Shown: positions 10,262 through 29,747 of the stretch, one piece after another
Layout of the letters: every line of letters starts with the position of its first letter
Position numbering within the stretch: position 1 is the stretch's first letter
Virus record (IMG/VR): IMGVR_UViG_3300020401_000064
Location: 1-29,843 of that record
Reading direction: 5' to 3' (one strand)
DNA from: a virus
Length of the DNA stretch: 29,843 nucleotides
Position numbers and translations under genes: made by a program
The notes under the pieces: model-generated
The model's database searches: none
Told to the model about the DNA's origin: nothing
What the model saw: only the letters and a program-made list of their open reading frames with translations

Positions 10262-10455
10262 AAGAATAAATCTGGGCTAGGAAGTATATCTTTGGCAGAC
10301 ATATATGATTTTAGTCTGCGGTAGGATTTAGCTGTTTTCTTTTCGTTAAATACAGTCGGGTCTCGACGATACCTTCTCTCTCTTAAAACCCAATCAGTCT
10401 TGAGAGCGTGGTATAAAACGTAATCCTCATCACTCAGTAGGTGGATCGTCTTCAC
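10258..10455 (-). CDS. Hypothetical protein, last gene of recombination operon
   Basis: A 65-residue basic protein starting at a GTG whose ribosome site, GGAGGAG six bases upstream, lies inside the end of the preceding gene; the two overlap by 26 bases. The sequence (MKTIHLLSDEDYVLYHALKT at its start, then an Arg-rich middle) shows no recognised domain. It is the distal gene of the leftward operon and ends against the convergent lysis genes. Confidence 0.55.
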   Translation of the reverse strand: MKTIHLLSDEDYVLYHALKTDWVLRERRYRRDPTVFNEKKTAKSYRRLKSYMSAKDILPSPDLFF

Positions 10456-10726
10456 TCATTTCTCCTCCGAGAGCCGCATATGATGCAAGGTCTACCCAAG
10501 AGTCTTCATGATCTATCGTATTACAAAGCCTAGAGATTTTTACCCAAGCCATCATTAAGGCAACATGACTAGGTTCTAGTCTATCTCCGTGTTCCCAAGC
10601 AGAATTAATAATAACATTCCACCCATCAGCAATTCTCTGATGATTGACTCTTGTATCTCCATAGTCTTTTGCTCTCTGTCCGTTAATTAATTCAGCACTT
10701 AACTTTAAAATATCATCACGTTGCAT
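10430..10726 (-). CDS. DUF6378-like phage protein
   Basis: A 98-residue protein. The pattern INGQRAKDYGD, NHQRIADGW, a central VALMMAWVKISRL and the closing DSWVDLASYAALGGE matches from memory the DUF6378 family of small phage proteins, whose members keep the DYG, the K-x-x-R and the D-x-x-x-Y-A-A-L blocks. Biochemical function is unknown. A GGAG sits seven bases upstream of the ATG, and it overlaps the coiled-coil gene by 11 bases, placing it firmly in the recombination operon. Confidence 0.75.
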   Translation of the reverse strand: MQRDDILKLSAELINGQRAKDYGDTRVNHQRIADGWNVIINSAWEHGDRLEPSHVALMMAWVKISRLCNTIDHEDSWVDLASYAALGGEMSEDDPPTE

Positions 10727-11015
10727 TGCAGAACTCCATTTCTACAGCCTTTATCTCTGCTAGTTTTAATCTGGCAGTGTGATTTAATTCGGCTATCGTT
10801 TCTCTTATTCTTTTCCTTTTATCCCTAGCCTTCGTCACCTGATCTTTAAATTCTTTAGTTGTCTTATCGACCAGATGATTGGGAGTGTCCTCTAGGGTTT
10901 GTATCCTCTCAGAGATAGATATTATTTCATTCTGAAACTGCTCTATCTCCAAGACAATCTCTGAATACTGTTTATTCAGCATAGAAAAATCATTTAGTTT
11001 TGCCTGTTTATCCAT
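10716..11015 (-). CDS. Coiled-coil protein, 99 aa
   Basis: A 99-residue, highly charged and almost fully helical product with heptad-like spacing throughout (for example IVLEIEQFQNEIISISERI and KRKRIRETIAEL). An AGAGG site precedes the ATG by five bases, and only two bases separate it from the stop of the exonuclease gene. No enzyme motif is seen. It may be a partner or accessory subunit of the recombination enzymes, which rests only on operon position. Confidence 0.6.
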   Translation of the reverse strand: MDKQAKLNDFSMLNKQYSEIVLEIEQFQNEIISISERIQTLEDTPNHLVDKTTKEFKDQVTKARDKRKRIRETIAELNHTARLKLAEIKAVEMEFCNAT

Positions 11016-11017
11016 GT

Positions 11018-11848
11018 CTACCTCTTCTCCATTGGTTTGTAGACAAGGTAATCATCGCAGACTTCATCAGCCCTGCTGTCATGTTTAATACACCACCACC
11101 CACCATTCTGGTCTGGTCTGGCTTGTTCACAAAAATTACATTGAGGTTCAACCTGTTTGCCCTGCCAACATATACTGTTTTTAAAACAACCTTTGCATCG
11201 CCAATCAGTTCCATCTGTACTGATTTTACCTGCCCTGTTGTTTATTGCTCTCTCAATTCTTTCTTTTAAATATGCCCACTCAAACTCATCATAGTCCACA
11301 ATCTGTGCGTGATAGTCACAGTTGTTTTTATTCATGGCTATAAACAAAGTTTGTTGCAGACCAGACATACCCATCATCATGGTGCATTGTGCATAGTATT
11401 GTGGGTGTGAAATCTTTACGCCGCTTTTCTGAAACTTTTTAAACGACGCATCGTTCATGGATTTAATTTCCAAGATCATTGGGTCGTCTTGCTCTAACTC
11501 TATGAGCCCATCTGTGTGGCAAACGACGTGGCCACCTAGCTCCTCGTATGTGTGCTGTCTTCCTGTAAGACCATCAACTTCCCATACCTGTACGCCAGCT
11601 TTCTTTTTTAAGTCCTTAACAATCTCGTCTTCGAGAATATGACCTAAGTTAAAAATTCTTTTGAGTCTGGGGTTTGGCTCGTCGTTAGGGAAACCCCTCA
11701 AGTTGTAAGCAAGTAGAGCATCACAAGGATTCCCAACGATAGAAGCACCGATATACTGGCGAGCTTTTTCTCTTCTTTCCGCATCGTATCCACCGTCTAT
11801 TTTATTTATTAAGTCGAGTGCTTTTTCTTGGCTCACATCATTATCCAT
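11018..11848 (-). CDS. PD-(D/E)XK exonuclease, Cas4/RecB-like, with Cys-rich C-terminus
   Basis: A 276-residue nuclease from the ATG at 11848. Motifs in order: GHILEDEIV (Glu about 73-75), HTDG with Asp113, LEIK with Glu127 and Lys129, and HPQYYAQ, the Q-x-x-x-Y-like element of RecB/Cas4-type nucleases. The C-terminal 60 residues hold at least seven cysteines (CKGC, C, CNFC, WWC), suggesting a metal or iron-sulfur site as in Cas4/AddB relatives. It would resect DNA ends for the adjacent annealing proteins. The start is unusual: it directly follows the U-tract of a strong hairpin and has no well-spaced ribosome site. An upstream in-frame start at 11938 would run through the hairpin. Confidence 0.8.
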   Translation of the reverse strand: MDNDVSQEKALDLINKIDGGYDAERREKARQYIGASIVGNPCDALLAYNLRGFPNDEPNPRLKRIFNLGHILEDEIVKDLKKKAGVQVWEVDGLTGRQHTYEELGGHVVCHTDGLIELEQDDPMILEIKSMNDASFKKFQKSGVKISHPQYYAQCTMMMGMSGLQQTLFIAMNKNNCDYHAQIVDYDEFEWAYLKERIERAINNRAGKISTDGTDWRCKGCFKNSICWQGKQVEPQCNFCEQARPDQNGGWWCIKHDSRADEVCDDYLVYKPMEKR

Positions 11849-11876
11849 AAAAAAAGGGGGAGTTCCCTCCCCCTTT
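11849..11876 (-). terminator. Rho-independent terminator or attenuator abutting the exonuclease start
   Basis: Read on the minus strand: a perfect 10-bp stem (AAAGGGGGAG with CTCCCCCTTT) closed by a GGAA tetraloop of GNRA type, followed by a run of Ts ending exactly at the next ATG. The plus strand lacks a comparable T-run, so it acts leftward. It lies in the 34 bases between the SSB-like gene and the exonuclease, inside an otherwise continuous operon. Confidence 0.8.
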
Positions 11877-11882
11877 ATAGAT

Positions 11883-12362
11883 TTAGAAAGGAATGTCGTC
11901 GTCCAATGTGGTAGATTCCTCACCACCACCATTGGCAAGAGGGTTAAAATACTTCACCTCTTTCATGTCTTTGATTGTCTCACCGTCTCTATTAGTCCAC
12001 GGCTTCGCCAATCCCACGACGATTTCACATTTAAGACCTTGCATCGACTCAACGTCACCAGGCTGGTCAGGATTTTTATGTCCCGCTGCAACCAAAAACG
12101 ATTTCAGTTGTCGTCTTGCAATCTCTTGTGCCTGAGCACTGGTGTGAGCAATGTTCAAGTTGGCTCGAATCTGCCCTGCCCCACCATCATCAACAAAAAG
12201 AAGAACCAACTTCTTATTATTACTGTCTCCGACTGTCTCTATTTTCGCCTCTTTGCAGGTAGCTGTATATTTACCTACATCCAAGACAGGAGTCCTTGGT
12301 GTCATCTCACCGAGTTCAACACTCGATAAGTCCAAGTCCCCGAATCCACTCCAATTACTCAT
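11883..12362 (-). CDS. DUF669-family single-stranded-DNA-binding-like protein
   Basis: A 159-residue protein: a beta-rich core from about residue 25 (VLDVGKYTATCKEAKIE, NKKLVLLFVDD, LKCEIVVGL) and an acidic, flexible tail ending DDDIPF. That terminal acidic-Ile-Pro-Phe peptide is the hallmark SSB tail that recruits repair proteins. DUF669 proteins sit beside phage Sak-type ATPases and are thought to coat single-stranded DNA. A good AAAGGAG site lies six bases before the ATG, within the end of the ATPase gene, which it overlaps by eight bases. The family call rests on motif pattern and neighbourhood. Confidence 0.8.
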   Translation of the reverse strand: MSNWSGFGDLDLSSVELGEMTPRTPVLDVGKYTATCKEAKIETVGDSNNKKLVLLFVDDGGAGQIRANLNIAHTSAQAQEIARRQLKSFLVAAGHKNPDQPGDVESMQGLKCEIVVGLAKPWTNRDGETIKDMKEVKYFNPLANGGGEESTTLDDDIPF

Positions 12363-13128
12363 CTTTCTCTCCTTTCTGAGTAGAACCTTTAGCCATCTTC
12401 GCTAAAAGATCGGTTACGTTATCGCACTCCTCAAAAGGTTTGAGGACATTACGAGGGTCTCTAGCCTTACCGTGCCAACCAGACACTTCGTCAGTTACAA
12501 TGTATCGACGCACTTTAGGATGTCCTCCATCGGTCTTCTCCGTTGTTCGGACACCGCACATAACGTGATCGAAAATTGCAGGAACATGCTTGGCTACAGC
12601 ATTTCCTTTCACCAATGGCCAGTATTGAGTTACGTCGTTTGCATCTTTCTCTTCTTTAGCAAGACAAGAAACATAGACATGTACTGGCAAATCTCTGAAC
12701 CATTTGAGAGCCCCTAAGAGGTGGCGAGAATAATCTCCCCAAAGAGCCCAAGAGTTGTTTCCACCCTCTTGCTCGTTCTCAAGTTGCTCAAGTAGACGCT
12801 CAGAAAGTTCTGTTAGGGAGTCGAGTGCGATCCACTTATAACCCATAGCTTGAAACTCATCGCTCATCATCATCTTAACGATGCCTCTAAAACTATAGAG
12901 TCCTTTGTCTGGATCGTGCTTTCCATCCCATGAAGAGAAAGGAAGGTAGTCAATACCTACATCTTCTACTGACTTTAACCCTGCCTCTCCACTGAGGATC
13001 AGACCTTTACCGTATCTCTTCTGGTAATGTCTGCATTGGTAGGTTTTGCCCCATCCATGGTGGGCATATAGCAATACTTTTGTTGGCCCTGATTGCTGAA
13101 GGTCTGCTGTTGACATGACTTTAAACAT
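12355..13128 (-). CDS. Sak4-like RecA-fold ATPase / annealing protein (AAA_24)
   Basis: A 257-residue P-loop ATPase. The Walker A region is AHHGWGKT (residues 22-29), with alanine at the usual first glycine; a Walker B-like strand KWIALDSL follows, then a long SWALWGDYSRHLLGALKWF helix and later beta strands (VHVYVSCLAKEE, RRYIVTDEV). This is the architecture of Sak4-type phage recombinases, which promote single-strand annealing with the phage SSB. The neighbours fit this exactly: an SSB-like protein directly downstream and an exonuclease after that. It overlaps the upstream coiled-coil gene by eight bases. Confidence 0.8.
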   Translation of the reverse strand: MFKVMSTADLQQSGPTKVLLYAHHGWGKTYQCRHYQKRYGKGLILSGEAGLKSVEDVGIDYLPFSSWDGKHDPDKGLYSFRGIVKMMMSDEFQAMGYKWIALDSLTELSERLLEQLENEQEGGNNSWALWGDYSRHLLGALKWFRDLPVHVYVSCLAKEEKDANDVTQYWPLVKGNAVAKHVPAIFDHVMCGVRTTEKTDGGHPKVRRYIVTDEVSGWHGKARDPRNVLKPFEECDNVTDLLAKMAKGSTQKGEKDE

Positions 13129-13630
13129 TTTTCACCACCTTTACTTTCGGTGAGTTGAGGTGACGGGTCAGAAAAGATTTTATCTTTGCTTGCTCGTCTG
13201 CTGGCAGGCGTTTGAACTTCCTCTTATCCACAGATAAGGCTCTGTTCACATAGTCAGGGAGTTCAGTTTGGCCGAAATACTTCTCAAGCTCTTCCTTGTC
13301 CCATGCCCACCTCTCGCTTCTAGTAACGGTGACGCCATATCCCTTGGTGTGCTTGTATAGTTCACCCTCTTCCTCTGGGAAGTAGTGCGCTATCTCACCC
13401 TCGATCATGGCTAGTTCTTCGTCGATCTCAGCTTTGGTCTGGTTGAGTTCATGGCATCGTTCAGCGAGATCATCTAACCTATCGTTTCGCCTTAGTTCTG
13501 CCTCAGTGAGTTTAGTTTGGGAGTCAGAGGTAGATGTACTCTTTACCTCATCATCCACCGCCTTTAAGATCGGCGGCCCTTGTGTCGGGTCATAACCCGA
13601 CCACGCGGTGTCGTCGGTTTTTGTTTTCAT
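13121..13630 (-). CDS. Coiled-coil protein of the recombination operon, 169 aa
   Basis: First gene of the leftward operon, with an AAAGGAG site five bases before the ATG. Residues 1-45 are polar and probably disordered; about 45-85 form a charged helix (LDDLAERCHELNQTKAEIDE); the rest is a compact basic domain (GYGVTVTRSERWAWDKEELE) ending with a Lys/Val-rich tail. The helix-then-domain layout is loosely like Gam-type nuclease-inhibitor or DNA-end proteins, but I do not see a convincing signature. Its place ahead of the Sak4-like ATPase suggests a part in recombination. Confidence 0.65.
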   Translation of the reverse strand: MKTKTDDTAWSGYDPTQGPPILKAVDDEVKSTSTSDSQTKLTEAELRRNDRLDDLAERCHELNQTKAEIDEELAMIEGEIAHYFPEEEGELYKHTKGYGVTVTRSERWAWDKEELEKYFGQTELPDYVNRALSVDKRKFKRLPADEQAKIKSFLTRHLNSPKVKVVKNV

Positions 13631-20671: not shown

Positions 20672-20858
20672 CGATAGTCAAGACGATCTCACTATCTCAG
20701 ACATTGCCGACGCATTGGAGGTATCGCAGGTAACGGTTTCAAGGTTGCTCAAGAAACTGCATTACATTGATGTGGTAGATAAACCTTGGAATAAACGTGG
20801 TATTAAGCGAGGCAATCGTGCCTCGCAATACCTACGCAAGTGGGGTGTTACAGCTTAG
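20613..20858 (+). CDS. Winged-helix DNA-binding protein, 81 aa
   Basis: Start has AGGAG nine bases upstream. Residues 10-60 (TIRLLRLIDDSQDDLTISDI, ADALEVSQVTVSRLLKKL) form a clear winged helix-turn-helix of the MarR/IclR kind, followed by a basic wing (NKRGIKRGNRASQYLRKWG). It is the last gene of the rightward integrase group, and its end overlaps the convergent operon by 11 bases. Candidate repressor, excisionase-type or integration regulator; nothing in the sequence decides between these. Confidence 0.65.
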   Translation: MHRLKNTEITRTIRLLRLIDDSQDDLTISDIADALEVSQVTVSRLLKKLHYIDVVDKPWNKRGIKRGNRASQYLRKWGVTA

Positions 20859-21342
20859 ACGCCCACCCATCACACAACTCATCTGCGGTGTCATAAGTGG
20901 CACGTGCTAACAGACCTGCAAAGACAACTTCTGTGCCGTCTTCATTCGGCACGGAAACTTTATCACTGCCACCCTTCGTGTACTCACACACCGTGTATTC
21001 CTTATTAATTCTACTGTGAACGATGCATAAATCACCTACGCCTAATTTCTCTGCGTAGTTCTTGATGAACACACCATCAGCACGGAATGTACCCTTCAAC
21101 TTCTTGCCACTGGCATCCTCGTCGCTGACTCCCGTGAAAGACTTGATCCACCAAGACGACTTGGCTTTCGTCTTGAACCGTCCTTTTCCTCCGCTGCTGG
21201 ACGCTGCGGTGGGTTTCGGGGCGAGTGCTTCGACCTCAGCCTTAACGTCTGGGTCTGTTGCAATGGCCGTAACGAGTTCGATCTTCTCAACTCTGCTCAT
21301 GGCCTTGAATATACTTATGATACGATCAACTGTCTGGCTCAT
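20848..21342 (-). CDS. Hypothetical two-part protein, 164 aa
   Basis: Last gene of the CobS-led operon; AAGGAG lies seven bases before the ATG. An N-terminal helical segment (DRIISIFKAMSRVEKIELVT) joins through a Ser/Gly/Lys linker (about 44-62) to a beta-rich domain (GVSDEDASGKKLKGTFRADG, LGVGDLCIVHSRINKEYTVC). No known motif. Overlaps the upstream gene by four bases (ATGA). Confidence 0.55.
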   Translation of the reverse strand: MSQTVDRIISIFKAMSRVEKIELVTAIATDPDVKAEVEALAPKPTAASSSGGKGRFKTKAKSSWWIKSFTGVSDEDASGKKLKGTFRADGVFIKNYAEKLGVGDLCIVHSRINKEYTVCEYTKGGSDKVSVPNEDGTEVVFAGLLARATYDTADELCDGWASKL

Positions 21343-21608
21343 TCGTAGTCTCCTTCTGGTAGTTCGTAAGTAACATCAACGCCATGCACGTGTTGAATGT
21401 TGTGTTCGCTATTAACCTTCAACACAAAGTCGGTGTAGATTGTTGGGTTCTCACCCTCATCGTAGTCACCGTTGTGGTGTAAGTCGTAGTAAAGATTGTG
21501 GATTGCGTCGTGTATGTCTTCGCCTTCCTCAATCGTAATCGTCTCAAAGAATGGGTCTTTGAAAGCCTCATGCGCTATTATTATGTATGTCACTGTTCTG
21601 CTCGACAT
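21339..21608 (-). CDS. Hypothetical acidic protein, 89 aa
   Basis: An AAAGGAGG site six bases upstream makes this one of the best translation starts in the operon. The product is acidic with a His-rich centre (IHNLYYDLHHNGDYDEGEN) and alternating beta-like segments (VTYIIIAHEAF, IYTDFVLKVN). No family recognised. It overlaps the upstream gene by 41 bases. Confidence 0.55.
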   Translation of the reverse strand: MSSRTVTYIIIAHEAFKDPFFETITIEEGEDIHDAIHNLYYDLHHNGDYDEGENPTIYTDFVLKVNSEHNIQHVHGVDVTYELPEGDYE

Positions 21609-21792: not shown

Positions 21793-21964
21793 TCGTTACA
21801 TCCTCTGGTCTAGTTATGGTTACAATTTCCCACGCAATAGCGTGTATCCAATTAGGTGAGTTCTTCTTGTCGTAGTTCTTCTCGTCCAATTCGAACTCAA
21901 GCGAATCGACCAACCTACGCACTTTGCGTAGGTGGTCTAACGTCTTGGCGTCTAAGTCTGCCAT
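21770..21964 (-). CDS. Hypothetical helical protein, 64 aa
   Basis: Starts MADLDAKTLDHLRKVRRLVD behind AGGAG (eight bases). The first 30 residues form a charged helix, followed by a short hydrophobic stretch (PNWIHAIAWEIVTITRP). The start codon overlaps the stop of the upstream gene by one base. No recognised domain. Confidence 0.5.
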   Translation of the reverse strand: MADLDAKTLDHLRKVRRLVDSLEFELDEKNYDKKNSPNWIHAIAWEIVTITRPEDVTNESKSNT

Positions 21965-22443
21965 TAGGGATTCTCCTGTCTGAAGTGAGCACCCTCCATG
22001 AACGCATCACGTAGCAGTTCTTGGAGTTCTTCTGTGGTTACAGCGTGAAACTCAGCGTCATTACCTGCAAATCTCAGTGCAGATTTGACGCCTGCTTGCA
22101 CGACCTCATCACACTTTGCATCACGTGAGATAGACTTGTCTGCCTCATGGCCCGAAGCGAACGTCCACTTGGTCGGCACACGTCCTTCCTCGGTCTCCTC
22201 GACAACTCTCTCGGATACCCTCGTCTTGGTTGCGTTAGGGTTGCGTTGCCATGGATAAGTTTTGAGCCTCGTCTTGCGGAACGATCCGCCTCCCAGGTTC
22301 TCATCCAGGGGATTGCTGAACAGATCATCCTCAAGGTCGTCGAACATTCCACCCGTGTGTGTTGTCTTGGGCTCGTCTAGCTCGACCACCTCGTTGAGTT
22401 TCTTCTTGGCAATCTTCTTGGTTAAATCCTTACCTGTATTCAT
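21964..22443 (-). CDS. Hypothetical protein, 159 aa
   Basis: Start at 22443 (MNTGKDLTKKIAKKKLNEVV), with AGGAG six bases upstream; the longer frame to 22482 lies inside the previous gene. A basic N-terminus is followed by an acidic FDDLEDDLFSNPLDENLGGG stretch, a Tyr/Trp/Arg-rich middle (RKTRLKTYPWQRNPNA) and a helical C-terminus (ELQELLRDAFMEGAHFRQE). No recognised domain; the mixed charge looks largely disordered. Confidence 0.55.
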   Translation of the reverse strand: MNTGKDLTKKIAKKKLNEVVELDEPKTTHTGGMFDDLEDDLFSNPLDENLGGGSFRKTRLKTYPWQRNPNATKTRVSERVVEETEEGRVPTKWTFASGHEADKSISRDAKCDEVVQAGVKSALRFAGNDAEFHAVTTEELQELLRDAFMEGAHFRQENP

Positions 22444-22444
22444 A

Positions 22445-22723
22445 TCATTCTCCTTTGGTCTGTTTGGTTTTGAAAAATCCATCGTACTCAGGGTGCTTAT
22501 AGTGAAAGTACCTTGCGTAATAGGCTCGATGGTTGTTGCTTAGTTTGAAATCTTCGTTGCCTGTCTCGATGTCCTCGTGCCATCGGATGCGTTCGAAGAT
22601 AGAGTTAATCGAATAGTGCTTGCGTCCTTTGCGTATTGCTTCGAACGTGTACTTCTCGACTAACTGCATGACGTGTGGGTTCTTCCTATGAAAATCCCAC
22701 ATCTTTTGTTTGAGACTATCCAT
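22445..22723 (-). CDS. Conserved small phage protein (FHRKNPHV/RIRW type), 92 aa
   Basis: Start at 22723 (MDSLKQKMWDFHRKNPHVMQ), whose ATG overlaps the upstream stop as TAATG. Conserved-looking blocks are DFHRKNPHV, YSINSIFERIRWHED and the final NHRAYYARYFHYKHPEYDGFF. I recall short proteins with this pattern in many phages, where function is unknown. The aromatic- and His-rich composition is notable. One base separates it from the next gene. Confidence 0.65.
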   Translation of the reverse strand: MDSLKQKMWDFHRKNPHVMQLVEKYTFEAIRKGRKHYSINSIFERIRWHEDIETGNEDFKLSNNHRAYYARYFHYKHPEYDGFFKTKQTKGE

Positions 22724-23265
22724 TACGCACACTCCAACATGGCGTGTGAGTCAAACCACGTTGGCTTGACATGCTCGTGGTTAGTCCACTTGTGGCACGA
22801 CTGCTTGGTGTTGATGTAATACAGACGATAACTCGACACGTGACATGATTGGTCATCCCATCGCAGCTTGCGTTCGGACTTGTGTATGTCGTAGTTGAGT
22901 TTGTATTCGTCTGGCATACATCGGGGTGGGTTGCGCCACTCGGCATCTGGTATAACCGTATGCATGGCGGTGCTCAGTGTGGGTAACAGCGATAGGCTCT
23001 TGTGGTATGTGCCGAACCTACGCTCGTGTTCCTCACCCAAAGCGAGGGCATGCTCCCATGCCCAGTTGAACGCCTGCATGCTAGTGCCAACCCACTTGGT
23101 CATGGGATGGTTCTCGTATGCAGACGCATAACCACCGTCGAAACCGTTAGCACGTGCGGCTGTAGACATCATCTGGCATGCTTCGAGAAGCATCTTGCCA
23201 ACATGTCTGTCACCTAGATCACGTGCGGCTTGACGTGGGTCATCGTCCAGAAAGAATATATTCAT
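22723..23265 (-). CDS. Pyrimidine-dimer-glycosylase-like phage protein, 180 aa
   Basis: The N-terminus MNIFFLDDDPRQAARDLGDR with HVGKMLLEACQMMSTAAR, then ENHPMTKWVG and NWAWEHALALGEEH, matches from memory a family of marine and cyanophage proteins often annotated as pyrimidine dimer DNA glycosylase-like, although few have been tested. The C-terminal half has Pro/Arg-rich PPRCMPDEYK and later cysteines. If the annotation holds, it would repair UV damage in phage DNA, useful in surface water. AAGGAGG lies six bases before the ATG. Confident as a conserved gene, less so for the activity. Confidence 0.65.
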   Translation of the reverse strand: MNIFFLDDDPRQAARDLGDRHVGKMLLEACQMMSTAARANGFDGGYASAYENHPMTKWVGTSMQAFNWAWEHALALGEEHERRFGTYHKSLSLLPTLSTAMHTVIPDAEWRNPPRCMPDEYKLNYDIHKSERKLRWDDQSCHVSSYRLYYINTKQSCHKWTNHEHVKPTWFDSHAMLECA

Positions 23266-23440
23266 AATGTACCTCCTTGATTATGGTTTTGATTTCGGAA
23301 AGGTTTGTGGAACGCACACCCTTGGCCTTGACTCGTTTGGATACATCGAGCCAAAACCGCATGTCTTTTCCGCGTCTTGGGAATAGACGCATCCACGACG
23401 TGTGTACTTTCCATTTCGTCTTGCGTTCATGCTGATGCAT
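23240..23440 (-). CDS. Hypothetical basic protein, up to 66 aa
   Basis: Fills the 160-base gap between the CobT-like gene and the glycosylase-like gene and overlaps both. The most upstream ATG (23440) has no ribosome site; an internal ATG at 23392 has a modest GGAAAG upstream and may be the real start. The product is basic (MRLFPRRGKDMRFWLDVSKR then VKAKGVRSTNLSEIKTIIKE). No family recognised. Real existence is likely from position, but the start is uncertain. Confidence 0.45.
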   Translation of the reverse strand: MHQHERKTKWKVHTSWMRLFPRRGKDMRFWLDVSKRVKAKGVRSTNLSEIKTIIKEVHYEYILSGR

Positions 23441-25391
23441 TGAACAGCTTGGAGTTATCGACTTGGAAGCGAGTTCCCAACAACGCTTGTGCGAGCTTGT
23501 CCATCACAGCACCCTCAAGGTCATCGAGGTCGTTGATCTCAACCCACTTGGGATAGAACTGCGAGACTGCATCGGATTGGATACCGATACCGATCACGTC
23601 GATGCCTGACTTCTCAACGATGTTGACTGCATCACGTGTGTATTGGTTCACGAGATCACTATCCATGGCACATGCAGGCCAACCGTCACTCAACGTGATG
23701 AATATCTTTCGCTTCTCAATACGTTGTGCAAGACGTTGATATGCATAGATGATGGCGTCACCGTCTGAGTTATTGCCACCCGCACAATCTGCGATCATGC
23801 CCATGGACGGCTTGGCCTCAAACAATCGCTCGTCAAAGTCCTTGAACACGTACATATCCAATGGCTCGCATCGGTAATCGTAGATGTTCAACTCACCTGA
23901 GTGATACTTGTCGTAGTCCTCAGACGACAACTTGAGGTCTGAGCGGTTGTTGAACCCGAGAACCTCGTACTTGACACCAGTGCGGTCGATAGCCTCACAC
24001 ACTGCGATGGCGACCTTCTGTGCAATAGACGCACGACGACGACGCATTGAACCAGACAAGTCGATCAGCATCGTGAGCGCAGTGTCCATCTCCTTGCGAT
24101 CTTCGCGCAGCTTGAACACGTTCGGCTTGGCTTGGTAGGCCGAGGTCAATCTGCGTGTGTCAAGACGACCGTTCTCCATGCCACCCTCCCAATCACGTGT
24201 CTGGGTAGCAACGAGAGCACGTTCGAGCTTGCGTCTCATGACATTGAGAGAACCACTGACTGCCTCAAGTTCCTTGGCATACTTGTTAGGCGATGCGTTA
24301 CGAAGGTCTCTCGATAGCGAGGTCTTGCCCTTACGTGAGTGCCACTTGTCTTGGCTTGAGTCGAACACCTTGTATGCGCCACGGCTCTTGCCGATTGCCT
24401 CACCGAACGAACGCTTGACGGCATCACCAAGGTCGAAGTTTTCGTACACCTCAATCTCGTCTGGGTCTTCGGACGTGACAACCTCGTGGCCACCACCTAC
24501 TCCGCCACCTTCGTGTGTACGGTCTTCGCTATCATCCCTAGATAGGGTGACTTTATCCCCATCCGTGCGAGATGGCTCGTCGCTATGGCCAGTTCCCTCT
24601 TCGTCCCCATCGGTAGGATTAGGTGCAGTACCCTCTCCCTCTCCTTTGGGCTCTCCGCTTGGTACATCACCCTCACCAGTCGCCTCACCTTCACCTCCTT
24701 CTCCGTCATCACACGGCTTTGTTGGTCGTCCAAATTCTTCTTGCTCCTCGTCGAACTCATCCATCCAATCCTCAGCGAATGACTTCGACACAGCCTCAGC
24801 CAACGTGCATACATCCTTGGTCGTCTCGCATGCGTCGAGTGCGTTGATGTACTTGTGTAGGTTGTTGCGTATGTTGTCTGGCAAGCGATCAAGACACTGC
24901 TCTGGTGTCTCGCCACCGTAGGACTTGCGACCTTCCCACGTTATCGCAACGGGGCCGATGAACTTGGGGTCTTTGAGACGCTCGTCTGTGGCATCGACCT
25001 CATCGAGAAACGTCTGATTAACCTCAGATGTGACGGCTCGTAGGTTTGTCGTCGCGCCTGGGTAATCGTCCATGACACGTCGCTCTAACCATATGTCTTC
25101 GAGCGCATTGTGTGTCTGGTGAAGTAGCTTGTTGCCCTTGTTCTTGCGACCCCACTCGTTGAGATACTCAAAGTCCGTGTGTCGAACGTGGCCTGCCTCA
25201 TGGTCAATGTAACCACGCATCACATCACGTTGCTCGTCTGTGATGTCTGCGAGTGCATCGACCGAAGGCACAGTGATTGTGTCACCGTCTGTAAATGCCT
25301 CGTTGCCACGGAATACCACGTTGATTTTGGACTCACGACCGAATACCGCACTGGTCTCAGTCATTTCGTGTTGGAATAATCCACCTTTCAT
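23427..25391 (-). CDS. cobT: CobT-like VWA protein with HEAGH zincin motif
   Basis: A 654-residue protein from the ATG at 25391 (AAGGAG six bases upstream); a longer frame to 25682 lies inside the CobS-like gene. Layout: N-terminal domain with a metal-binding HEAGH (64-68); central helical part; a long Gly/Glu/Asp-rich linker; a C-terminal von Willebrand A domain with MIDAS motif DLSGSM (about 444-449) and later TLSDGWP. This is the CobT architecture, the cobaltochelatase partner of CobS, though CobT-like/MoxR-like pairs also remodel other protein complexes. Ten bases separate it from the CobS-like gene, so the two form an AAA+/VWA pair. No CobN is present, so cobalt insertion is not established. 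Confidence 0.85.
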   Translation of the reverse strand: MKGGLFQHEMTETSAVFGRESKINVVFRGNEAFTDGDTITVPSVDALADITDEQRDVMRGYIDHEAGHVRHTDFEYLNEWGRKNKGNKLLHQTHNALEDIWLERRVMDDYPGATTNLRAVTSEVNQTFLDEVDATDERLKDPKFIGPVAITWEGRKSYGGETPEQCLDRLPDNIRNNLHKYINALDACETTKDVCTLAEAVSKSFAEDWMDEFDEEQEEFGRPTKPCDDGEGGEGEATGEGDVPSGEPKGEGEGTAPNPTDGDEEGTGHSDEPSRTDGDKVTLSRDDSEDRTHEGGGVGGGHEVVTSEDPDEIEVYENFDLGDAVKRSFGEAIGKSRGAYKVFDSSQDKWHSRKGKTSLSRDLRNASPNKYAKELEAVSGSLNVMRRKLERALVATQTRDWEGGMENGRLDTRRLTSAYQAKPNVFKLREDRKEMDTALTMLIDLSGSMRRRRASIAQKVAIAVCEAIDRTGVKYEVLGFNNRSDLKLSSEDYDKYHSGELNIYDYRCEPLDMYVFKDFDERLFEAKPSMGMIADCAGGNNSDGDAIIYAYQRLAQRIEKRKIFITLSDGWPACAMDSDLVNQYTRDAVNIVEKSGIDVIGIGIQSDAVSQFYPKWVEINDLDDLEGAVMDKLAQALLGTRFQVDNSKLFNASA

Positions 25392-25401
25392 GTTGGTCTC
25401 C

Positions 25402-27261
25402 TTATGAAAATACTCGTTGTGCAATGCCTTGAAGCACCACCTTGTCTTGCACGGTTGCGCGGTCGAGGATGGTTGTCTCAAATGCTTGCTGAAATGCCTT
25501 GGTCTCTGAGCCTGCGGGATAGAACGTGTAGAACGCCATAACCGCTTGCCCCAAGGCGATGAACCCACGAGGACTGATAGGTTGCAGAACCTTGCCCTCC
25601 TTGAACGCTTGCAGATGCTCGTGAACATACGAGTCGATCTTGTCGATGTCTGACTCCTCAAGACGTGATGCATTGGCGGCAATCAACTTCTTGCGAGCAT
25701 GCTTGGGCATGTAGTCAATGTGCGACCACACGGTGAACCTATCGAGCAACGCAATGGATTGCGGTCTTGCACCTTGGTACATCCCGAACTCATCACCTTG
25801 GCCAACGGTGTTGCCAGTTGCGAACATGCGGAACATTCTGTGTGGCTTAACCACACGACCGCCGTCCTCAGTAATCAGCAAACCGTTACCCTCGAAGACA
25901 CGTTGCATGACGTAGGATACGTCTGGCCTCACGAAGTCAATCTCGTCGAAGCATCCGATGTACGGGCCTTGCATCATCTGTGGCAAGATACCGTCAACGA
26001 ACGACGAAACTGTGTTCGTGTTGCCATGCTCGTCAGTCTCAGTCGTCAGAACGTCACGACCAATCAAGTCCATACGAGTGATCTCAGAGTCGAAGTTGAG
26101 ACGCATGAACGGATAACACAGACGTGCAGCGACCTGCTCGACGAGTGTCGTCTTGCCCGACCCAGTGTGGCCGTGCAGGTAGCACCTGTTGTTCGTGATG
26201 ATCGAGTAAAGCACTCGCATTAGGGGTTGGGGTTGGAATTGGTAGTTCTCGTCAATCTGCGGAACGTGTGGATGCGGTGCATCCCACGTCCATACTGGCA
26301 CGTCGAACGTGAACTGTTTCTTGGCCGCACCTGTGATACCGAAGACCTTGTAAGCCTCCTCGACACGTACTGAACCGCTTGGTATCGACGCATCACCTGT
26401 GGGTGTTGATGCACTTGGCTCCGTGGGTAGAGCCATCTTGGGTGCTGATTTCAGCTTGTTGATCTCAGCCGTGGCCGAGTTAATCGCACCGATCAACTCA
26501 CCGATGTCTGGCAAGCCTGCCGTGCCGAGCGTCATGTTAATCAGCTTGGCCTTGTCCTCGTCTGGTAACTCATACGTGCCAGGGCCAGACGCGATTGACT
26601 CCTCAACCCCAACGTCAATGTGTGCGTTGAGCTTGTCCTTGAGTTCAATGAACGTCGCCATTGCACCGATGCGTGTGTCGTCTGAGCGGTCAGGCGTAAC
26701 GCCGACCTCGATAGTCGAGAACACACCAGTGGCTTTTGCACTGCCGAGAACCTCGACGAATATCTCACGCACATCGTCTTCCGATGCGTAGTCTGTGAGG
26801 ATTGAGTAGGCCGACACGAGGTCGTCTAGGGACATGTCTTCGGACATGGACTTCTCCTTGGTTGTGAATAGGTCATGGTCGTTTGCGAAGGCGTTCCATT
26901 CCTTCACACCCACGTCGATTGGCCATCCAAAGTGGACGCCTGTCTTCGACTTGGGCGATGGGTTGGCATCACATGTGTTGTTCTCGATTGCGTCGAGAAC
27001 TTCGTGTGCCGTGATCTTCCCCATGACGCACATGGTTAAGACCTCGATGGGTAGTGAATCACGCAAGCCCGAGCCTGTCGGACGTGGTGATATTTGGTTG
27101 GACGCACTGCCAACGTAGTCTGACTTGTGGAACGCATTTGCGATGTCATGGTCTGAAACAGCAATGTTCGCATCCCATAGTGATCGCAGTTGCGAGCGCA
27201 GGTCGGCTTTCGTCGAGTGCGTTTGCCATGCTCTAATGCATTGGCTGGTAGCATCTGCCAT
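25402..27261 (-). CDS. cobS: CobS-like AAA+ ATPase (MoxR superfamily) with long N-terminal extension
   Basis: A 619-residue protein, about twice the length of ordinary CobS. The first ~310 residues form an unrecognised region. The rest is CobS-like: FDVPVWTWDAPHPHVPQIDE and NYQF, then Walker A GHTGSGKT (about 364-371), a DLIGRD segment, Walker B IGCFDEID (about 437), FRMFATGNT as sensor 1 and ALLDRFTVW as an arginine-finger region. AAAGGAG lies seven bases before the ATG. It should form a hexameric ring acting with the CobT-like VWA protein. Its promoter carries the same operator as integrase. The substrate is unknown: without CobN, a non-cobalamin remodelling role is as likely. Confidence 0.87.
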   Translation of the reverse strand: MADATSQCIRAWQTHSTKADLRSQLRSLWDANIAVSDHDIANAFHKSDYVGSASNQISPRPTGSGLRDSLPIEVLTMCVMGKITAHEVLDAIENNTCDANPSPKSKTGVHFGWPIDVGVKEWNAFANDHDLFTTKEKSMSEDMSLDDLVSAYSILTDYASEDDVREIFVEVLGSAKATGVFSTIEVGVTPDRSDDTRIGAMATFIELKDKLNAHIDVGVEESIASGPGTYELPDEDKAKLINMTLGTAGLPDIGELIGAINSATAEINKLKSAPKMALPTEPSASTPTGDASIPSGSVRVEEAYKVFGITGAAKKQFTFDVPVWTWDAPHPHVPQIDENYQFQPQPLMRVLYSIITNNRCYLHGHTGSGKTTLVEQVAARLCYPFMRLNFDSEITRMDLIGRDVLTTETDEHGNTNTVSSFVDGILPQMMQGPYIGCFDEIDFVRPDVSYVMQRVFEGNGLLITEDGGRVVKPHRMFRMFATGNTVGQGDEFGMYQGARPQSIALLDRFTVWSHIDYMPKHARKKLIAANASRLEESDIDKIDSYVHEHLQAFKEGKVLQPISPRGFIALGQAVMAFYTFYPAGSETKAFQQAFETTILDRATVQDKVVLQGIAQRVFS

Positions 27262-28074: not shown

Positions 28075-28512
28075 CTACCCATTAATCCCTTCGGGATTAC
28101 GTGGGTTGGATTCCCATCGGCTCGCCATTCGCTCGCGCACCTCGTCTGGCACGTCGTGAACACTGCCGAAATCGTTCTGGCACTCGATCACGAACACGCT
28201 GTAACTGAACAGCTTGGCGAGGTTGAAGTACGGCTCCATCTCCCAACGTCGCGAGAAGGTGTTGTGTACGACGATGACGTGCTCGCCATCGAGCATGTTG
28301 TCTTCCACTCGGCTCTTACACCAATCGTGAGCCTCGCCAAGACGAGATGCGTCGAACCTGTACTCGCCATCGACCTCGAAGAAATCGTCAGCGCACACCA
28401 TGAGTCCGTCCACGTCCTCGTCCCAACTCATGTATGAGTCGAGGATTGTTCTCGCCAACGTGGTCTTGCCTGAACCTGCTAGACCTCGTACTAGGTACAG
28501 TGTCCTTTTCAT
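28075..28512 (-). CDS. P-loop kinase, polynucleotide-kinase/N4BP2-like (AAA_33)
   Basis: A 145-residue protein. Walker A GLAGSGKT (10-17) follows the first strand; CADDFFEVDGEYRFDASRLG (about 40-59) is the typical substrate-lid block; HDWCKSRV, VVHNTFSRRWEMEPYF and FVIECQND continue the pattern of the polynucleotide-kinase-like family related to NEDD4-binding protein 2. It should phosphorylate a nucleic acid end or nucleotide, but the substrate cannot be read from the sequence. GGGAGG lies five bases before the ATG. The hairpin repeat copy B overlaps its last codons (encoding NPEGING), and a terminator follows. Confidence 0.8.
   Translation of the reverse strand: MKRTLYLVRGLAGSGKTTLARTILDSYMSWDEDVDGLMVCADDFFEVDGEYRFDASRLGEAHDWCKSRVEDNMLDGEHVIVVHNTFSRRWEMEPYFNLAKLFSYSVFVIECQNDFGSVHDVPDEVRERMASRWESNPRNPEGING
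28083..28099. repeat. AATCCC-type hairpin repeat, copy B
   Basis: TAATCCC-TTC-GGGATTA, a perfect seven-base stem with a three-base loop, lying in the last codons of the kinase gene. On the minus strand the loop reads GAA. Confidence 0.6.
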
Positions 28513-29124: not shown

Positions 29125-29532
29125 TTAGCTGATGCGCTTGCTGAACGCAGTCATGAACGCCGCGATTGCAGTCGCGTCTGAGCCGACCTGATCGGTCACG
29201 TATGCGGCAACCGCGTCGAAGTCGAGCGTGTCAGGCTTCGCCTTGGCCTTCGCCTTAGCCTTCGGCTTGGCGGTCGCTTTGGCCTTCGCCTTGGGCTTGG
29301 AAGCCTTCGGCTTGGGTGCGTTGCCGTTCGTGAACGCGAGGCCAACGTCGAGTGCGCCTGTGGCCAACTGCTCGGCCACGCGAGTCCAACGTCGTCTTGC
29401 GCCGTCGCGCATGTTGCCTTCGAGCTTGATGAGCACCAAGGCGTGTGCTTCGCCGTGCGTGAGTACGCCTGCGGTGATGTCTTCGTTGAGTTGTTTCACG
29501 GTCTTGCCCGCGAGTTCGTATGTGTCTGTCAT
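29125..29532 (-). CDS. Histone-H1-like Lys/Ala/Pro-rich protein, 135 aa
   Basis: AGGAG lies seven bases before the ATG. Residues 1-70 form a folded helical part (KTVKQLNEDITAGVLTHGEA, RRRWTRVAEQLATGALDVG); about 72-100 are a low-complexity KPKAKAKA repeat like bacterial H1/AlgP tails; the rest is an acidic-to-neutral helix (FDAVAAYVTDQVGSDATAIA). Such tails bind DNA non-specifically. It may condense or mark host or phage DNA, but that is inference. The repeat DNA is built from GCCTTNGCC-like units and could expand or shrink. Confidence 0.75.
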   Translation of the reverse strand: MTDTYELAGKTVKQLNEDITAGVLTHGEAHALVLIKLEGNMRDGARRRWTRVAEQLATGALDVGLAFTNGNAPKPKASKPKAKAKATAKPKAKAKAKAKPDTLDFDAVAAYVTDQVGSDATAIAAFMTAFSKRIS

Positions 29533-29578: not shown

Positions 29579-29593
29579 TAATCCCTTCGGGAT
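29579..29593. repeat. AATCCC-type hairpin repeat, copy C
   Basis: TAATCCC-TTC-GGGAT, five to six pairs, followed at 29595 by GCATGCG as after copy A. Lies 47 bases upstream of the H1-like gene. Confidence 0.55.
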
Positions 29594-29747
29594 AGCATGC
29601 GTGAGAGGACGACACTCCCGCCTGCGTGATGCTAAGTTCCTGAAATGGTTAGCTTCACGCACACGAGGGCATCGTTCGGAGCTACGCGAGCCTGCTCGCG
29701 GAAACGTCCGACACGCCAACAGCGAGGATTTCCTTGCTGTGGGAGTA

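Follow-up and report, generated by a model that had tools for sequence, protein, structure and literature searches.

A CobS/CobT-like AAA+ and VWA-zincin pair in a CRP-810-related virus fragment: a candidate protein-remodelling machine

The CobS-like and CobT-like proteins

We describe a virus fragment of 29,843 nucleotides (29.8 kb; IMG/VR record IMGVR_UViG_3300020401_000064, the whole of which is called the window here) and, within it, two adjoining minus-strand genes that encode a CobS-like AAA+ ATPase and a CobT-like protein with zincin-type and VWA domains (Table 1). The window is kin to Roseobacter phage CRP-810, with many genes at 29-74% identity, and a Sak4-type ATPase, an exonuclease, a primase-polymerase, a glycosylase, CobS and CobT are common to both. 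We judge it moderately probable that the pair forms a two-component AAA+ remodelling machine, in which a MoxR-type ring works with a VWA-zincin partner, and that its likely target belongs to the machinery by which the phage replicates, recombines or repairs its own DNA. The basis of this reading is that the motifs are intact, the predicted folds and gene contexts agree with it, the phages lack CobN and the cobaltochelatase family cut-offs are failed.

Both genes lie where a preliminary description of this DNA had placed them, and the HEAGH and MIDAS motifs and the roughly 310-residue CobS extension that it reported are real. The CobT-like protein passes the Pfam gathering cut-offs for CobT (PF06213; 35.5 against 26.1 bits) and CobT_C (PF11775; 112.5 against 21). 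A 751-residue version, given by the longest open reading frame (ORF) from a TTG at 25682, was rejected because homologues and an AAGGAG Shine-Dalgarno sequence favour the ATG at 25391. This corrected start lies 10 nt beyond the end of CobS, and each gene is preceded by a good ribosome-binding site (for CobS, AAAGGAG ahead of the ATG).

HEAGH occupies residues 64-68 of the CobT-like protein and the metal-ion-dependent adhesion site (MIDAS) motif, DLSGS, residues 444-448; a NALEDIWLE motif is also N-terminal. Invariant in our CobT alignment (A6) are H64, E65 and H68, then N95, E98, D99 and E103, and finally D444, S446 and S448. The structural model places HEAGH and the acidic ligand motif on helices of high confidence (52-71 and 88-109); its VWA domain is also well predicted, and its confidence is low at 216-311. 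With HExxH and a downstream helix bearing an acidic ligand, the protein has by sequence the signature of a putative zincin metallopeptidase. The nearest folds to the VWA domain are the Rea1/Mdn1 MIDAS domain and NorD; for the zincin domain, no known fold was among the matches listed in the fold searches, which were filled by VWA domains. In one viral CobT (L114:4462-6342), HEAGGH stands in place of HExxH, apparently through the insertion of a single residue.

In the CobS-like protein, Walker A (GHTGSGKTT) and Walker B (DE) are invariant or nearly so among relatives, and the nearest folds to its model are NorQ and CbbQ. Intact Walker motifs beside a VWA protein with a MIDAS give the window pair the make-up of a MoxR/CobS-type AAA+ ATPase with its VWA partner. 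The AAA core begins near residue 305-330, and the preceding extension of some 300-310 residues, mostly helical in an AlphaFold2 model, has no match in Pfam. That this extension is a fused DUF3150 was considered and rejected, as the two have no similarity. We also observe in the CobS-type proteins of phages SSU5 (L005:9884-11119) and nickie (L164:9003-10229) an N-terminal Cys2-His2-like motif resembling the Ros/MucR zinc finger, which scores below the Pfam cut-off and is a possible DNA-binding domain.

Table 1. Features of the window, with database matches (E-values) and occurrence in related viral loci
Feature	Position	Strand	Match or occurrence
CobT-like protein, 654 aa (zincin-type domain at the N-terminus, acidic disordered linker, VWA/MIDAS domain at the C-terminus)	23427..25391	minus	CobT_C 3.1e-32; PHROG 1576 1.8e-70
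CobS-like MoxR/CobS-type AAA+ ATPase, 619 aa	25402..27261	minus	AAA_5 4.1e-14; PHROG 249 2.3e-48
N-terminal extension of CobS-like protein (residues 1-297), mostly helical, no known family	26371..27261	minus	conserved in CRP-810-type relatives
66-aa ORF directly after CobT	23240..23440	minus	48/82 loci, 1-3 kb from CobT start; most constant downstream companion
Pyrimidine-dimer DNA glycosylase-like gene	22723..23265	minus	Pyr_excise 5.8e-7; PHROG 624 6.8e-45; 39/82 loci
95-aa protein, PHROG 13625	22445..22732	minus	1.4e-25; 26/82 loci
Downstream small gene, not a constant companion	21964-22482	minus	4/82 loci
Downstream small gene, not a constant companion	21339-21608	minus	0/82 loci
Downstream small gene, not a constant companion	20848-21342	minus	12/82 loci
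Recombination module: YqaJ-type exonuclease, DUF669/SSB-like, Sak4-type AAA_24 ATPase, Gam-like	10430..13630	minus	proposed functional context, not adjacent

Relation to the cellular cobaltochelatase

The CobN-CobS-CobT cobaltochelatase, whose structure is solved (e.g. 9uka), shares with the window pair a homologous CobS-type AAA+ protein and CobT-type VWA protein from adjacent genes. The window differs in having no CobN, in falling under both equivalog cut-offs, in keeping the zincin motif and in the CobS extension, which cellular CobS lacks. Against the NCBIfam equivalogs, the CobT-like protein scores 129.9 bits (TIGR01651, cut-off 759) and the CobS-like protein 170.6 bits (TIGR01650, cut-off 558.6), whereas a cellular pair (L169) clears both with 993 bits for CobT and 641 for CobS. 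For the window pair, 'cobaltochelatase' is probably the wrong functional label.

The zincin motif HExxH occurs in none of 30 cellular alphaproteobacterial CobTs (top matches), with or without CobN in the genome, and is present in the CobT homologues of the window, SSU5, ICP2, a Rhizobium phage, cyanophage S-PM2, integrative and conjugative elements (ICEs) and IncC plasmids; most CobTs of mobile elements (phages, ICEs, plasmids) retain it. For SSU5, ICP2, Rhizobium phages, S-PM2 and an IncC plasmid, its presence was checked free of motif selection.

In both the CobS and the CobT tree, cellular pairs form one clade and window-type viral pairs another, each well supported, and the two are sisters (support 99/95 for CobS and 82/95 for CobT) on long branches. 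In each tree, every one of the nine pairs sampled from genomes with CobN falls in the cellular clade, which has a long stem of 1.6 and 2.4 changes per column. The separate, long-branched viral clade indicates that the phage pair is no recent theft from a host. The preliminary description had looked to a nearby cobN or tight clustering with cellular CobST as counter-evidence; no cobN is found, and the viral clade stands apart, though as sister to the cellular one. That the pair was captured from a host cobaltochelatase and is drifting without function, as database annotation as CobS/CobT alone might imply, is very improbable given this separate clade on its long stem, the conservation of Walker, MIDAS and zincin residues over diverse loci, and the near-constant association of the two genes. 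Of 82 related viral loci, 76 contain both genes; each of the remaining six has CobT at or close to the point where the sequence ends, where CobS would be lost to truncation.

CobN, which had been noted as missing from the fragment, is indeed absent from it, from complete CRP-810 and from a further 28 virus records that carry the pair. E. coli harbours SSU5-like phages and IncC plasmids that bear the pair, yet as a control genome it gave no CobN match. Of 23 genomes with an ICE-type pair, 18 are without CobN. Among 241 alphaproteobacterial genomes, we further note CobT in 188, CobN in 101, both in 98 and CobT without CobN in 90; cellular CobST is thus also often without its chelatase.

These distributions bear on a published proposal that viral CobST, as an auxiliary metabolic gene (AMG) pair, replaces or boosts the small chelatase subunits of the host, drives host CobN and so raises cobalamin for B12-dependent ribonucleotide reductase (RNR) (PMC8651126). 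Consistent with this proposal are the sister placement of the window pair next to a cellular clade with CobN-bearing members and the RNR matches, one of which is weak, in all six cobavirus-like records. That roseobacters use a B12-dependent RNR also speaks in its favour. Yet the 17 long records of the window clade that are not cobaviruses contain no RNR of any class. The failed equivalog cut-offs, the long cellular stem and relatives' hosts such as E. coli that are without CobN also argue against the proposal, and it is weakened for the CRP-810 host lineage, the CHUG roseobacters, which lack cobG and cbiX (PMC11288001) and de novo B12 synthesis (PMC9426536). We regard a role of the window pair in host cobalamin synthesis as unlikely. 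The preliminary description had left open whether the pair drives host CobN or is a stand-alone MoxR-VWA machine; the latter is better supported by the cut-offs, the zincin motif, the missing phage CobN, the CobN-less hosts and the DNA modules described below, and the former has become less likely.

Gene context and candidate target

Adjacent cobS and cobT are the rule in phages, and such pairs are already published: cobST has been reported in tailed viruses infecting eight orders, with cyanophage cobT usually misannotated as peptidase (PMC8651126), and almost all CRP-810-type phages carry both genes, annotated there as AMGs of uncertain function (PMC11288001). The window pair is a further member of this type, and the surprise earlier expressed at finding a CobT partner was overstated. 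The CRP-810-type family (PMC11288001) shares with the window the gene order, 48-51% identity, a similar N-terminal extension and the downstream glycosylase, while its sequence is divergent and several of its small neighbour genes differ. More distantly, in the T4-like cyanophage S-PM2 a protein with HEVGH and MIDAS, annotated 'peptidase', adjoins CobS; this gene pair is very divergent, and the 'peptidase' is without a Pfam match.

In several lineages, the pair lies amid genes of DNA metabolism. In ICE-like bacterial loci, DUF3150 accompanies CobT in 43 of 43 cases; 31 of these loci also have an exonuclease and 25 have RecT/Bet, with many of the others ending at contig ends. IncC plasmids have the order ssb-bet-exo-DUF3150-CobT, and a CobS-type ATPase is encoded upstream, a few genes away. 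The order is ligase, CobT, CobS and DNA polymerase III (DnaE) in SSU5, nickie and Rhizobium phages; helicase, primase, CobT, CobS and DnaE in a Stenotrophomonas phage; and gp47/gp46, 'peptidase', CobS and gp45/gp44 in S-PM2. In ICP2 and cobavirus T5S1, genes for primase, helicase and polymerase follow a few genes downstream of the pair. The ICE-like and IncC modules resemble the window in pairing a CobS-type AAA+ protein with an HExxH-bearing CobT-type VWA protein, often in hosts without CobN, and differ in the DUF3150 partner, the adjacent exonuclease and RecT/Bet, a shorter CobS and a CobT identity of just 21-25%. DUF3150 gave no match among the window proteins scanned, which took in part of the small ORFs. 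Of the 17 long records of the window clade that are not cobaviruses, 16 have a Sak4-type AAA_24 ATPase that exceeds the cut-off.

The best fold matches, NorQ-NorD, CbbQ-CbbO and Rea1/Midasin, likewise combine an AAA+ ring with a VWA/MIDAS domain, and have known targets (nitric oxide reductase, Rubisco and the pre-60S ribosome, respectively). In such machines the ring is coupled through the MIDAS-bearing domain to a complex, which is then remodelled; we know of no zincin domain in any of them. The phage pair, if it works in a like manner, would remodel its target and might cut it through the zincin domain. In the proposed mechanism, the CobS-like protein would form an ATPase ring on which the CobT-like protein docks via its VWA/MIDAS domain, presenting a target protein that the N-terminal domain, as a probable zinc metallopeptidase, may clip. 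Because of the gene contexts of the relatives, we would place this target among the proteins of DNA replication, recombination or repair encoded by the element.

The architecture itself leaves the target unfixed, since NorQD, CbbQO, GvpN and Rea1 serve unrelated complexes, and the same machine could act outside DNA metabolism, in virion assembly, on host protein complexes or in counter-defence. The downstream genes of the window clade, most of them small and without known function, are compatible with such a target, and CobS is weakly similar to the IetA defence ATPase. The IetA match is, however, limited to the Walker A region, CobT has no PADLOC match, and the ICEs, IncC plasmids and several phage lineages hold the pair amid recombination and replication genes; a target of this kind seems rather unlikely to us. 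A defence role as such, examined with PADLOC, was rejected on just Walker A-level matches.

Several observations weigh against a remodelling machine directed at DNA metabolism. The solved structures closest to both proteins by profile search are cobaltochelatase subunits, and the sister placement in both trees points the same way. HExxH formed part of some of the locus search patterns, which makes the motif counts for the loci so found partly circular, and it is lost in nickie and BUCTxx99, and therefore catalysis is not always needed. In neither ICP2 (18 of 62 gene pairs as close) nor T5S1 (10-12 of 60) is the pair significantly near to replication genes, and many metabolic genes sit in the phage replication module too. 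Within the window, the pair lies about 10 kb from the recombination module, and its nearest DNA-related neighbour is the repair glycosylase. Our searches of one open-access library turned up no paper that ties cobST to DNA recombination.

An earlier picture of a ten-gene operon, headed by the pair and made up of small genes of unassigned function, does not fit the window. The pair has five minus-strand ORFs on its upstream side and six on its downstream side, and the six include the glycosylase, which is annotated at the equivalent position in CRP-810. The 66-residue ORF and the glycosylase often travel with the pair, and the other downstream genes vary. Scores in the recombination module are 4.7e-6 for YqaJ and 2.6e-20 for AAA_24, and, below the Pfam cut-off, 0.0096 for DUF669 and 8.4e-4 for Phage_Mu_Gam. 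G+C rises from about 0.45 to 0.54 within ~22-30 kb of the window, the part that holds the pair. A hairpin-like element, TAATCCCTTCGGGAT, has two intergenic copies (28083-28106 and 29579-29602), which are possibly terminators or regulatory sites. A small P-loop kinase-like protein (28075-28512; AAA_33, PHROG 2071) is seen in just one of the 82 related loci, and a short protein of histone-like composition (29125-29532) carries a run of Ala-Lys-Pro repeats encoded by 12-nt DNA repeats; a similar protein lies upstream of the pair in locus L006.

Ancestry of the pair and implications

With NorQ/CbbQ as the root, the ICE type is deepest, followed by the SSU5-type phages and then by the cellular and window types. 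The approximately unbiased (AU) test does not reject a topology that puts the cellular pair outside every mobile pair (p = 0.056), and the root is therefore no more than suggestive. We tentatively raise the possibility, which we hold with low confidence, that cellular CobS/CobT descends from a mobile-element AAA+/VWA-zincin machine, and that CobT lost its metallopeptidase site on recruitment to drive CobN. If so, phage 'cobST' would be the older form and not a set of stolen host genes.

Many virome studies tally cobS and cobT as B12 auxiliary metabolic genes. If these pairs are DNA replication or recombination machines, statements on viral B12 metabolism would need revising, and the long-standing puzzle of phage cobS could be tested directly in CRP-810, in SSU5-like phages or in IncC plasmids.

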